In this document: positions 2,249 to 16,321 of the stretch, piece by piece
Numbering within the stretch: position 1 is the first letter of the stretch
Layout: each line of letters starts with the position of its first letter
Virus record (IMG/VR): IMGVR_UViG_3300027976_001012
Coordinates: 1-20,071 of that record
Direction: 5' to 3' (one strand)
DNA length: 20,071 nucleotides
DNA from: a virus
Translations under genes and position numbers: made by a program
The notes under the pieces: model-generated
Database searches by the model: none
Told to the model about the DNA's origin: nothing
The model's input: the letters and a program-made list of their open reading frames with translations, nothing else

Positions 2249-3061
2249 TTAAAGACTGCCAGCTCCATCTGGATGGTGGCCTGAACCAGCGTCTTGAATT
2301 GCTCGTCCGTCTTTCCCTACTTTTATTTTCTTAGCAATCTTTTTCCAAGTTTTAACACTTGAGAAAGGAGTGTCTTTCATGTATTTATTCACCAACTCCG
2401 TAGTACCAAATTCTCCAGCGCCATACTCTTCTTTGATTGTTCTTACTGTACCATCTTTCTTAGCAAACCAAGCTTCAAATTTAATCTCTGGAAACATTCT
2501 TTGTAATTTTAGGAATTCACTTAGATTAGGTAAACTATCATCAAACAATCTTACACGACTAAACTCACCGGTCTTTAAGTAATTATGTATGATAATTGCT
2601 TTTGCTCTAGGTGTTGATACATCCTTTATTTTGCCAGCTCTTTCAACTCGAACCTTATCAATATCAAAACCATGTTTTCTGAAAGTATCTAAAAACACTT
2701 TCTTATTATTCATATCTTGTCGAGCTGTCACGATGATAACTTTACTTTTTGGTGTAGATAAAGCATTCTTAAGAATAATCTTAGCTTTTGCCATCATTCT
2801 TTTAATTGGTCTAGATTCTTTGTTAAACTTTTCCGAATCTTTCATTTCAGAGAAATCAAATGACTCGCCAGCTTTTAATCTATATTTAGAATAAGTGCCA
2901 GTCTCTAATCTTTTCACTAATTTCTTACCCTTGCGTACTATTATTTTAGCTGTAGTTTCAAACAGAGTATCGTCTATATCAAATATAGTCAGCCCGCCTA
3001 AAACGTCAGCTTTTTCTGCTAATAGATTTTCTGTTAAAAAGGCGTCAAATTTAAGCAACAA
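2249..3061 (-). CDS. HAD-superfamily phosphatase-like protein
   Basis: A 270-residue protein. HAD motif I is FDIDDT (Asp28-x-Asp30-Asp31-Thr32), giving the nucleophile and the acid/base. VIIVTARQD (about 108-116) is motif II with Thr112, a lysine near 154 can serve as motif III, and RLFDDSLPN (171-179) with Asp174/Asp175 is motif IV for Mg2+. The enzyme should hydrolyse a phosphate monoester, substrate unknown. The start is TTG at 3061: CGAGGATAG ends the upstream gene and places GAGG five bases before the TTG, with no nearby in-frame ATG. It follows the small protein gene and a ligase-like gene. That context suggests nucleic-acid end processing, as in the HAD phosphatase half of T4 polynucleotide kinase, but this is inference. 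Confidence 0.8.
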   Translation of the reverse strand: MLLKFDAFLTENLLAEKADVLGGLTIFDIDDTLFETTAKIIVRKGKKLVKRLETGTYSKYRLKAGESFDFSEMKDSEKFNKESRPIKRMMAKAKIILKNALSTPKSKVIIVTARQDMNNKKVFLDTFRKHGFDIDKVRVERAGKIKDVSTPRAKAIIIHNYLKTGEFSRVRLFDDSLPNLSEFLKLQRMFPEIKFEAWFAKKDGTVRTIKEEYGAGEFGTTELVNKYMKDTPFSSVKTWKKIAKKIKVGKDGRAIQDAGSGHHPDGAGSL

Positions 3062-3062
3062 A

Positions 3063-3371
3063 CTATCCTCGTGTCAACGTTAGTATTTTTTGTATTTGTT
3101 GTTCAACGGCTTCTTTACGATTCGGCCAATAGATATATTCCTTATCGGCAGTTTTAAGTAGTTTACTAAAGAATGGTAATGTTAATTTCTCTAGTTCTGA
3201 TAACTTAACTTCATATTCCTCAACTGTTGAATTCTTTTCTCTTTGTGCCTGTGTACCTACATCTTCAATTACTTTTTTGTAATCTTTTTCTGATACAGTA
3301 TCAAACACTGAACTGAAGCCGAAATCATCGTCTCCATATTCTGCTATAATTTTATTAATATCATATGCCAT
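3063..3371 (-). CDS. Small acidic hypothetical protein
   Basis: A 102-residue protein beginning MAYDINKIIAEYGDDDFGFSS. The frame is open further upstream (to 3446), but only the ATG at 3371 has a good ribosome site (GGGGAAATAAAG) and avoids a long overlap with the ligase-like gene that ends at 3385. The N-terminus is acidic (GDDDFGF), and the rest is predicted helical with several lysine/glutamate stretches. I do not recognise a domain. It sits between the ligase-like protein and the HAD phosphatase, and its last codons (CGA GGA TAG) supply the Shine-Dalgarno of the HAD gene. This suggests co-expression in fixed proportion and perhaps a shared complex. The type of N-terminus is familiar from T4-like marine phages, but no function can be given. 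Confidence 0.7.
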   Translation of the reverse strand: MAYDINKIIAEYGDDDFGFSSVFDTVSEKDYKKVIEDVGTQAQREKNSTVEEYEVKLSELEKLTLPFFSKLLKTADKEYIYWPNRKEAVEQQIQKILTLTRG

Positions 3372-14204: not shown

Positions 14205-14738
14205 TTAAAACAAATCGCCGATGCCACCAGTTTGCCCAGGTTTTAATTCTGGCTCAACAGGCTGTGGTGCTGGTTTAGGTCCACTTCCCATAGAATAACC
14301 ACTATCATCAGTTACCGGATATGAAGGTTGTGCTACTGGTTTGGCAGTAAATTCCCAGCCTTCTTTTACAAATTGTTGGAAGTTTGGTGGTGTCCAAGTT
14401 TCTGGTTTTAGAATCTTACCATCAGCTCTCTTTGTTACCAATCCAGTTTCTTTATCAATCTTAATCAAATTATTGGCTGCACCTTCTTTCCAGATGCCAT
14501 CAACATCTAATCCTAACGAATTCATGTAACCAAGAATAACCCATATTGAATCAAAACAAGCATCAATGATTTCTGGTTTATCTCCAATATCCATACTTGT
14601 GTGTAATTCTGCAATCTCTTCTTTTATAAGATTATAATATAGGTCAGATTGAGGTTGGTTAACTTCTGTTGTTGTTTGTCCTGCAGCTTTCATAAAGGTC
14701 TTTACATCTTTATTAAAGTTTGTGATTGCTTTAGTCAT
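14205..14738 (-). CDS. MazG/HisE-like nucleotide pyrophosphohydrolase
   Basis: A 177-residue protein. The all-alpha NTP pyrophosphatase pattern is visible: KEEIAEL with Glu40, Glu41 and Glu44 (EExxE), then DACFDSIW with Asp59 and Asp63, which together bind Mg2+. ANNLIKIDKETG and KRADGKILKPETWTPPNF match the C-terminal segment of phage HisE/MazG-type enzymes. Such enzymes hydrolyse (d)NTPs or alarmone-like nucleotides to monophosphates. The last 45 residues are a proline-rich linker ending in GGIGDLF, which could be a protein-docking peptide. ATG 14738 is chosen because GGAG lies six bases before it; an ATG at 14750 is itself part of that ribosome region. The start overlaps the end of the HNH gene by eight bases. 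Confidence 0.8.
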   Translation of the reverse strand: MTKAITNFNKDVKTFMKAAGQTTTEVNQPQSDLYYNLIKEEIAELHTSMDIGDKPEIIDACFDSIWVILGYMNSLGLDVDGIWKEGAANNLIKIDKETGLVTKRADGKILKPETWTPPNFQQFVKEGWEFTAKPVAQPSYPVTDDSGYSMGSGPKPAPQPVEPELKPGQTGGIGDLF

Positions 14739-15255
14739 ATGTTTCTCCATGTTTTCTAATAATGTGATACGCTAAATTTGAAACGCCCATTGCTTTGTCA
14801 CAATGTGGACACTTCTCTTTAACCTGTTTTTTCATAGTCTCTGAAATCTTAGACTTTGTATTACTGTCATGCCATACTTTGCCATTTGCCAATCTAGAGT
14901 CACGATTGTTTTTGGCATGTTCTGGCGTTCTTACTTTACCACTGGCAGATATAGACATCTTCTTTTTAGTCTCTTCTGATTGGGTTGTACCAAGGCGGTG
15001 TTCCCTTAGTTTTTGTTTAGTTTCTTCAGAGTGTTTTTTGCCTTTCATACCCATGCTTTGTTTTATCCTTAATATTTCTTCTTTGCCTATTCGTCCAGAT
15101 AATGCCTTCCATGCACAATAATCTTGCCATCTATCATGTTCTTCATATAATTTCTTGTGAGCAAGTGCATGGTCTTTAACTGAAAGTTCAATTAAATTTG
15201 AGGCCTCATTTGTGCCACCTATATGTTTTGGTATAATGTGATGTATATGTTTCAT
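14731..15255 (-). CDS. Free-standing HNH homing endonuclease with NUMOD3 repeats
   Basis: A 174-residue protein. The N-terminal HIHHIIPKHIGGTNEASNLIEL followed by HALAH is the HNH nuclease fold (paired histidines 5-6, Asn20, His28/His32). Then come NUMOD3-type DNA-binding repeats (KKHSEETKQKL, TQSEETKKKM, RTPEHAKNN) and a C-terminal zinc-finger-like C-x2-C-x11-H-x4-H. It should cut a specific DNA site and promote its own or a neighbour's transfer. The frame is open to 15315, but that region contains the pqqA terminator, and homologous-looking proteins begin at MKHIHH, so ATG 15255 is used. There is no good ribosome site, which suggests weak expression. It stands just downstream of the group I intron but outside it. 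Its 3' end carries the ribosome site of the MazG-like gene. Confidence 0.85.
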   Translation of the reverse strand: MKHIHHIIPKHIGGTNEASNLIELSVKDHALAHKKLYEEHDRWQDYCAWKALSGRIGKEEILRIKQSMGMKGKKHSEETKQKLREHRLGTTQSEETKKKMSISASGKVRTPEHAKNNRDSRLANGKVWHDSNTKSKISETMKKQVKEKCPHCDKAMGVSNLAYHIIRKHGETYD

Positions 15256-15304
15256 ACATTTATTTATGCCAAAAGTTATCTCAAACCCAAAGATTGCCGT
15301 CAAC

Positions 15305-15327
15305 AAAAAACCCACAGTGAAGTGGGT
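15305..15327 (-). terminator. Rho-independent terminator of the pqqA-like gene
   Basis: On the minus strand ACCCAC-TTCACT-GTGGGT forms a six-base-pair stem, with the terminal T joining a run of T followed by G. It lies 57 bases after the pqqA-like stop codon and before the HNH gene, so most transcripts of the split gene should end here. Confidence 0.8.
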
Positions 15328-15344
15328 CTATTGATTTTACTAAT

Positions 15345-15383
15345 AATGCGTTAGTTTGTAACTAACAATATATATTAGGAATC
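15345..15383 (-). other. Hairpin in the pqqA 3' untranslated region
   Basis: GTTAGTT-ACA-AACTAAC (15366-15350 on the minus strand) forms a seven-base-pair stem between the pqqA-like stop and the terminator. It could protect the short mRNA end or simply be the residue of an AT-rich palindrome. No other signal is seen in this stretch. Confidence 0.4.
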
Positions 15384-15686
15384 TTAACGATTCATAACGT
15401 ACATTGTCACTTCAACGATTGTTATTGATGTGGCTCTTTATCCTCACCTTCTCATAATCACTTATGAGTCCAGACTATATCATCAAGACTTGTTGTCTTG
15501 CCGGGCACTCGTGTCATCTTCATCACTGTTCTAGTGGTATGATGTTAGTCGTTGAACCTTCTCATAATCCCTTATGAGCTTGGATGCTGATTGTCTCGAA
15601 AGATGTCCCAGCAGTTCACCCGGTTTTAATTGGGCCTAAAGAATTAACCCAAAACGCATTTCAGTTGCTGATGGAGTTGTCCACAT
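15384..15686 (-). CDS. pqqA: PqqA-like peptide gene, split by a group I intron (join of 15686-15647 and 15415-15384)
   Basis: Exon 1 (40 bases from ATG 15686) encodes MWTTPSATEMRFG plus the first base of codon 14. Exon 2 (TT GAA GTG ... CGT TAA) completes FEVTMYVMNR. The spliced 23-residue peptide matches PqqA in length and in its core RxGFEVTMY, including the Glu15-x3-Tyr19 pair that PqqE and partners cross-link to form pyrroloquinoline quinone. Unspliced mRNA would stop at TAG 15636-15638 and give only 16 residues without Glu/Tyr. AGGA lies nine bases before the ATG, a promoter-like pair is at 15801-15829 and a terminator at 15305-15327. PqqA-like peptides are annotated in T4-like marine phages, where their function is unknown. 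No other pqq gene is in the window, so a role in PQQ synthesis is doubtful. The exon assignment rests on peptide continuity, terminal G and P1/P10 pairing. Confidence 0.88.
15416..15646 (-). ncRNA. Group I self-splicing intron (subgroup IA-like, 231 nt) in the pqqA-like gene
   Basis: Numbered from the 5' splice site (15646): P1 pairs exon UUGGGU with intron 12-17 GCCCAA, giving the conserved U-G wobble at the cut. P3 is CCGGG 24-28 with CCCGG 142-146, and P4 is UGCUG 34-38 with CAGCA 58-62. P5 is a short stem closed by UUCG, and P6a is CUCAUAA-GGGA-UUAUGAG. P7 is GACUA 97-101 with UAGUC 170-174. P7.1/P7.2-like stems lie between P7 and P3' (CAUC/GAUG, CACU/AGUG), which marks subgroup IA. P8 is CAAGAC-AACAA-GUCUUG, and P9 is CUCAUAA-GUGA-UUAUGAG. 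The intron ends in G at 15416. P10 pairs exon-2 UUGAAG with intron 6-11 (six pairs). The GGGUGAACUGCUGG and GGUUCAACGACUA segments are typical of phage introns. It contains no ORF. All core elements are intact, so it should splice. Confidence 0.92.
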
Positions 15687-15793
15687 AGTATTGATTCCTT
15701 TTTAAAATGTTACATTAAAGAACCAGGTCAACAGAGAGTATTTCTACAAAGTCTGTTTTGAGATTTAACAAATGGGTATTGATTCCTATTTGT
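15687..15793 (-). promoter_or_regulatory. Structured leader of the pqqA-like gene with duplicated ribosome-site sequence
   Basis: The leader contains AGGAATCAATAC twice: at 15699-15688, directly before the ATG as the ribosome site, and at 15787-15776. The upstream copy, plus CC, is exactly the 14-base loop of a seven-base-pair hairpin (AACAAAT/ATTTGTT, 15794-15767). A second weaker hairpin (AACAGA/TCTGTT) follows. The arrangement looks like a binding site for a translational regulator, with one copy in the initiation region and one displayed in a loop. This is inference. Confidence 0.4.
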
Positions 15794-15800
15794 TAGTACT

Positions 15801-15856: not shown

Positions 15857-16321
15857 TTATTTAATTAATCCTACCTTGTATACCGTTTTGCCATTTTCTT
15901 TCATAGCAGTTAAAGCTTTATTACGATTGCTACCATCTGTTTTGTAACTCACATGAACCCAACCAGAATCATCAATACCTGGAGTATAAAACTCCAATAT
16001 CACCTGGTCAAAGTCTAGGTTGTCTACAATGTATTGTGCTAGGTCGGCATTGGCGACACCAGGACACTCTATGTCGGCTGCTTCGCCGTTACAGTGTTGT
16101 GATTTAGATGAACCGCCTACTGCTTTGTTAAGTTCTGGACCACGATAACCTGAATTGATTGTTGTTACACCAAAATGGTCTCTAACCTTTTGCACAACAT
16201 TTTCGAATAGGGCTTTTGCATTTTCTAGATGACCCTCATCTGGAGTATTATCAATATCCATTCGAATGGCTGTTTGACTTTTAGTGAATTCTTGTAGTGT
16301 GAAATTTTTAGATAATTTCAA
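15857..16321 (-). CDS. M15-family peptidase (endolysin-like)
   Basis: A 154-residue protein of the compact M15 type that cuts peptide cross-links of peptidoglycan. SGYRGPELNKAVGG (57-70) is the substrate-binding start of the fold. SQHCNGEAADI (74-84) gives the zinc ligands His76 and Asp83, and GWVHVSY (120-126) gives the third ligand, His123. All three ligands are present. No signal peptide is visible, so release would need a holin or another route. Translation probably begins at TTG 16321: GGGAG in the last codons of the upstream gene lies seven bases before it, and the gap between genes is two bases. The role is host lysis or local wall opening. The gene ends before the promoter of the pqqA-like gene, with no clear terminator except the leader hairpin. 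Confidence 0.85.
   Translation of the reverse strand: MKLSKNFTLQEFTKSQTAIRMDIDNTPDEGHLENAKALFENVVQKVRDHFGVTTINSGYRGPELNKAVGGSSKSQHCNGEAADIECPGVANADLAQYIVDNLDFDQVILEFYTPGIDDSGWVHVSYKTDGSNRNKALTAMKENGKTVYKVGLIK

Follow-up and report, generated by a model that had tools for sequence, protein, structure and literature searches.

A group I intron in a 23-codon phage pqqA gene and its putative collaborative homing with an adjoining HNH/NUMOD3 endonuclease

Results

Layout of the locus

The window (the whole stretch of DNA that was analysed, 20,071 bases) is a complete virus record with T4-like genes on the minus strand and a DNA polymerase that shares ~49% identity with its counterparts in marine Synechococcus phages. 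Its split pqqA gene of 23 codons lies in the interval from an M15 endolysin-like gene to a mazG-like one (Table 1). An earlier note on this DNA had placed the two exons and the intron between them, and its boundaries were found to be exact to the base.

Table 1. Features of the split pqqA locus and its surroundings (window positions)
Feature	Position	Strand	Basis or remark
M15 endolysin-like gene, 5' neighbour of pqqA	15857..16321	-	profile matches
pqqA exon 1 (ATG ... GGGT, 40 nt)	15647..15686	-	Pfam PqqA once joined to exon 2
Group I intron, 231 nt	15416..15646	-	Rfam RF00028, model R1, covariation, ORF list
In-frame TAG ending the unspliced frame after 16 residues	15636..15638	-	translation
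Internal guide GCCCAA, P1 partner of the 3'-terminal six bases of exon 1 (15652-15647)	15630..15635	-	covariation
P7 5' strand GACUA (guanosine-binding helix; pseudoknot with P3)	15546..15550	-	Rfam alignment and covariation
P7 3' strand UAGUC	15473..15477	-	Rfam alignment and covariation
pqqA exon 2 (FEVTMYVMNR and stop, 32 nt)	15384..15415	-	Pfam PqqA once joined to exon 1
Terminator-like hairpin and T run, between pqqA and the endonuclease gene	15304..15329	-	consensus scan only
Partial copy of the pqqA core/intron site, GGGTTTGAGATAACTTTTGG, candidate operator	15269..15288	-	begins 33 nt before the ATG of the endonuclease gene
HNH/NUMOD3 homing endonuclease gene, 174 aa, outside the intron	14731..15255	-	Pfam, phrog_655, alignment, tree
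mazG-like pyrophosphohydrolase gene, 3' neighbour of the insertion	14205..14738	-	profile matches

At window 14731-14738 the endonuclease gene ends in a stop codon that shares bases with the beginning of the mazG-like gene (ATGACTAA); the insertion therefore extends as far as that start codon. Upstream of pqqA, AGGAATCAATAC is present twice on the minus strand, at window 15774-15790 and at 15684-15703. The second copy is the ribosome-binding region of pqqA and the first may be the remnant of a lost small gene.

The joined reading frame

The joined exons encode MWTTPSATEMRFG followed by FEVTMYVMNR, the peptide that the earlier note had derived, and match Pfam PqqA (PF08042) with 41.3 bits (cut-off 21.1; E=1.4e-10). 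The Glu-x3-Tyr residues of this peptide are Glu15 and Tyr19. Cross-linking of the Glu and Tyr of PqqA by PqqE is the first step of PQQ synthesis (PMC10906245). By its Pfam match and its Glu-x3-Tyr the joined product is PqqA; modification by the PqqE and PqqD of a host is inferred only. Without splicing, translation stops at an in-frame TAG and leaves the short stub that had been predicted. An early in-frame stop is found in every intron allele checked, with stubs of 15-16 residues.

Splice sites and structure of the intron

The group I core that had been read from the sequence was recovered by the proposed Rfam check, in which Intron_gpI (RF00028) matched on the minus strand with 65.5 bits (E=1.8e-16) and P3-P9 aligned well. 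Note that this match comes from a scan of 15300-15800 only, at a cut-off of 50 bits. A scan of the entire window at the Rfam gathering threshold gave no match at all, apparently due to its fast filters. RNA model R1 scores the window intron at 366 bits, where the window is one of the model's own rows.

P1 is formed as claimed, by UUGGGU and GCCCAA with a U.G pair at the cut, and this U.G is found at the 5' splice site in 9/9 aligned alleles. The predicted six-pair P10 is present in the window, and five of its pairs are kept in all nine aligned alleles. The last intron base is G throughout the alignment (for most alleles this G was built into the search pattern). Across the nine alleles P7 is invariant, P3, P6a, P8 and P9 covary, and 99.7% of the cells of the drawn structure pair. 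Two-sided changes were seen in 20 base pairs against a shuffled mean of 11.5, a count reached by none of 500 shuffles, and sliding the pairing partners abolished the covariation signal. In P1, changes at the third position of the Gly codon are matched by changes in the guide (G-C, U-A or A-U), so the exon and the intron coevolve. The precursor's folding energy was dropped as evidence because it is unremarkable (z=-0.66); the evidence for the intron is thus the covariance model and covariation.

Within the intron the ORF list shows no coding-strand frame that reaches 40 aa, and the presence of both P7.1 and P7.2 suggests that the intron belongs to subgroup IA. That a group I intron interrupts the 23-codon pqqA at these splice sites, just before the Glu-x3-Tyr core, is confirmed, with splicing in cells inferred; the claim held in every computational test run, including the comparison with intronless homologues described below.

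Split pqqA alleles

Eleven further IMG/VR contigs split pqqA at the identical base. Ten of these loci were found with a degenerate exon-2 pattern in which G replaced the preceding T (all ten of the stretches so found were pqqA, interrupted by 233-278 nt), and L369 is the eleventh. Some of the contigs are nearly identical in sequence, so there are fewer alleles than contigs. Three main allele types were distinguished, whose Gly codon is GGG, GGT or GGA. How well pqqA DNA is conserved near the insertion site was not counted as evidence, because the search patterns bias it. L216 and L217 have a 45-nt insertion near the 3' end of the intron. L217 combines it with the P9 stem of the window, a mixture that suggests recombination within the intron.

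Outside pqqA, the closest intron in the phage collection is that of LR756504.1 (L536), with 70% over 177 nt and an Rfam score of 60.4 bits. It lies at 1372-1651 of an unannotated 636-kb phage record and, unlike the intron in pqqA, directly 5' of a ribonucleotide reductase-like reading frame.

Intact pqqA genes in phages

Intronless homologues exist, and they match exactly exon 1 plus exon 2 (72 nt). Intact phage pqqA is common, with at least 120 stretches and no intron among the matches listed; a further 81 intact phage copies have the FEVTLY form. The earlier note had offered a choice, in which the intron either marked the peptide gene as highly conserved among phages or made its expression depend on splicing. 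The abundance of intact copies bears out the former. For a regulatory dependence, the only supporting fact is that the peptide needs splicing. No split pqqA was found among the matches listed from a pattern scan of bacterial contigs. Matches in Acinetobacter 'phages' were set aside as apparent bacterial chromosome, since pqqBCD and a radical-SAM gene lie next to them.

Named phages with pqqA mostly infect Methylophilales (the exceptions are a phage from a spring-water metagenome and two contigs that appear to be bacterial), from which we infer that the host of the window phage is probably a methylotroph. In the records of methylophage isolates that have pqqA, mostly no gene is called there, or an antisense ORF is. 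The gene is unannotated in most Methylophilales phage isolates (L002, L003, L005, L006, L007), and in Melnitz a short antisense ORF is annotated across it. L385 has two tandem intact copies 134 nt apart (3013-3084 and 3147-3218, minus strand), and this pair adjoins a convergent endonuclease gene of the pqqA type.

Viral PqqA has been reported from Lake Baikal together with methanol dehydrogenase (PMC7678222). Those methylophages resemble the present case in that viruses of methylotrophs carry PqqA, and differ in that the accessible part of the report notes neither a pqqA intron nor an endonuclease. The published OM43 phage literature that was searched does not mention pqqA, our searches found no work linking pqqA with homing endonucleases, and 'pqqA' and 'intron' co-occurred only in one survey of methane oxidation.

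The adjoining endonuclease

The endonuclease matches Pfam NUMOD3 above the cut-off (30.6 bits), HNH slightly under it (20.1, cut-off 21.4) and the phrog_655 homing endonuclease family (E=1.3e-19). H7, H8, N22, H31 and H35 (query numbering) are invariant in the alignment. A location within the intron is excluded, as the gene lies past exon 2 and the terminator-like hairpin. An intron without an ORF and an endonuclease gene outside it, adjoining the host gene, together meet the layout of collaborative homing. Of the first 11 split loci, the window included, eight have the endonuclease 3' of exon 2, and so does L369; it is missing from L210, L212 and L214.

Its nearest relatives also adjoin pqqA genes, but these are intronless, and the endonuclease gene is either in tandem with pqqA or convergent to it. 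Some 16 distinct loci are of this kind, which refutes the idea that the endonuclease occurs only with the intron and means that an intron need not be present. A tree of 34 proteins separates 22 pqqA-linked endonucleases from 12 unlinked relatives (support 99/96). When the intron is mapped as a label on the endonuclease tree, at least three changes are needed, which could also mean one gain and two losses. On the tree, the endonuclease seems to be dedicated to pqqA, and the intron seems to travel with more than one of its branches. The endonucleases of L401, L405, L411, L414, L417 and L422 form a related clade without a pqqA link; this clade shares a conserved upstream sequence of its own, which is GTAGTAGAGACAGCAGCAGTAAGA-like.

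Upstream of every pqqA-linked endonuclease is a stretch like GGTTTTGAARTNAC, which corresponds to the pqqA letters spanning the intron insertion point. This target-like site scores 11-14 out of 17 in 22 linked loci and 8-12 out of 17 in 30 unlinked loci (P=7e-10, a value that overstates independence because some linked loci are close kin). It nearly always stands 30-33 nt before the endonuclease ATG. An in-frame fusion of PqqA with the endonuclease was set aside, since in L133 and L137 the upstream stretch that resembles pqqA does not share the reading frame of the endonuclease.

The form of the pqqA core was compared with the presence of an endonuclease at those intronless loci whose 3' flank is at least 700 nt long. 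An endonuclease was found nearby at none of 111 FEVTMY[VI]M loci and at 11 of 68 FEVTLYVMN loci (Fisher P=1.4e-5). These eleven include duplicates and one weak 30% match, and kinship was not corrected for. L385 and L399 are FEVTMY loci that do have an endonuclease. Both have GTCACG codons, which are absent from the at least 120 FEVTMY[VI]M copies among the matches listed; the proposal that a variant target always explains intronless endonuclease loci is weakened by these two. Target variation as a second form of protection is plausible, and only suggested by these data.

Exchange between contigs

L209 has intron and endonuclease, and L036 has neither. Upstream, the two contigs share 99.7% identity across 602 nt, and downstream they are virtually the same for ~4 kb; their differences are confined to a tract that begins at pqqA exon 1 and ends with the endonuclease gene. 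Within this tract L209 resembles L215 (exon 1, 100%; intron, 99%; exon 2, 97%; spacer, 98%; endonuclease, 90%), while the flanks of L215 are 85-92% identical to L209 and 85-91% to L036. As judged from these identities, exons, intron, spacer and endonuclease were apparently replaced as a unit in this contig pair, leaving a recent homing footprint. The simplest reading would have an L215-like donor giving the tract to an L036-like phage, where the direction of transfer is inferred. The main alternative, a metagenomic chimera in L209, may apply and is not fully excluded because these are metagenomic assemblies. A weaker version of the pattern is seen in L211 and L214, with 95.6% identity in the intron tract and 82-89% in the flanks. 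L212 (intron only) and L216 (intron and endonuclease) have flanks that are 99.7-99.9% identical, so the endonuclease is gained and lost within a single phage species.

Discussion

We consider collaborative homing of intron and endonuclease on pqqA the probable explanation of this locus. The intron would excise itself from the transcript and restore PqqA, and the HNH/NUMOD3 endonuclease would recognise intronless pqqA around the intron insertion site. A carrier would be protected by the intron or by a variant target sequence; both this protection and cleavage at the intron site are inferred. In a co-infecting phage, repair of the cut would copy exons, intron, spacer and endonuclease gene together. 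The presence of the intron at pqqA would then be due to what is found there: an adjacent endonuclease, a pqqA-linked clade and a homing footprint, none of which the earlier note had mentioned.

Intron and endonuclease could instead be independent neighbours, with the endonuclease homing alone on a cut site elsewhere and the intron passed on by descent or occasional recombination. Many endonucleases beside intronless pqqA, in two orientations, and some introns without an endonuclease would be expected from this. We nevertheless regard it as unlikely, because the site upstream of the endonuclease copies the very pqqA stretch that spans the insertion point, one contig pair appears to have exchanged exons, intron and endonuclease as a single tract, and the endonucleases that accompany an intron fall on several branches within the pqqA-linked clade. 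In every allele checked, unspliced RNA would give a mere stub, which might also be taken to mean that the intron regulates PqqA synthesis like a switch, its splicing responsive to infection state or guanosine. Given that most phage pqqA genes do without an intron, that neither an aptamer nor an alternative splice site was found and that mobility accounts for the distribution, such a switch seems very improbable. We give even less credence to a dead intron or an assembly artefact that inactivates pqqA: expression data are absent, but the split gene recurs in twelve contigs from several phage lineages, all with open exons, compensatory changes keep P1 paired with the host codon, and P10 and the last G are conserved.

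What the pqqA-core copy in front of the endonuclease gene does is less easily settled. For I-TevI, a homing-site-like sequence at a late promoter is a proven operator (PMC2988022). The T4 td intron and I-TevI are similar to the present case in that such a sequence lies upstream of the endonuclease start, beside letters like those of a late promoter; they differ in that I-TevI is a GIY-YIG enzyme encoded inside its intron, for which operator binding and repression were shown, whereas here there is only sequence (PMC2988022). Autorepression of the endonuclease through the target-like site is accordingly an inference, with neither binding nor a promoter demonstrated, and the promoter-like letters nearby are weak evidence. 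The copy may be a passive relic of a first insertion in or next to pqqA and no operator at all, which remains quite possible even if we lean against it. It resembles the 3' part of pqqA and is in several loci in frame with the endonuclease, and TATAAATA is not enriched in the window, which has CATAAATA and not the exact motif. A relic does not readily account for a nearly constant distance to the ATG among endonucleases that are only ~50% identical and stand both in tandem and convergently, for copies that are out of frame in some loci, or for L388 and L400, in which the copy stays canonical where the adjoining pqqA has drifted.

Collaborative homing was reportedly described by Bonocora and Shub in 2009 in the DNA polymerase genes of T7-like phages, in work that PMC6083498 cites and PMC3984707 reviews. 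There, as proposed here, a free-standing endonuclease and an ORF-less intron converge on one target; the gene and the phage group are different. In psbA of cyanophage S-PM2, according to the part of the source available, F-CphI cleaves the allele that lacks the intron, and presence of the intron prevents the cut (PMC6083498, which cites Zeng et al. 2009). Both cases have an intron in an auxiliary metabolic gene of a T4-like phage and an adjoining endonuclease outside the intron, which belongs to the Endo VII-like DHHRN family in S-PM2, as far as that source shows, and to HNH/NUMOD3 here (PMC6083498). The pqqA case differs further in that the host gene has only 23 codons, cleavage is inferred, the endonuclease clade is also found beside intronless genes and a natural pair of alleles points to transfer.

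Phage pqqA is thus widespread yet mostly unannotated. The homing mechanism invoked here is known; its proposed placement on a 23-codon gene for a metabolic peptide would be new, with the mechanism itself inferred from sequence. Because the gene is only 72 nt long, the same few codons come under selection for coding the peptide, for serving as endonuclease target, for pairing with the guide and for splice-site function, and P1 couples even the silent position of the Gly codon to the intron. The alleles of pqqA comprise intronless genes, genes with the endonuclease only (in two orientations), genes with the intron only and genes with both. On the most far-reaching reading, which we consider somewhat less likely than not, they would provide a natural series for how composite mobile introns form.
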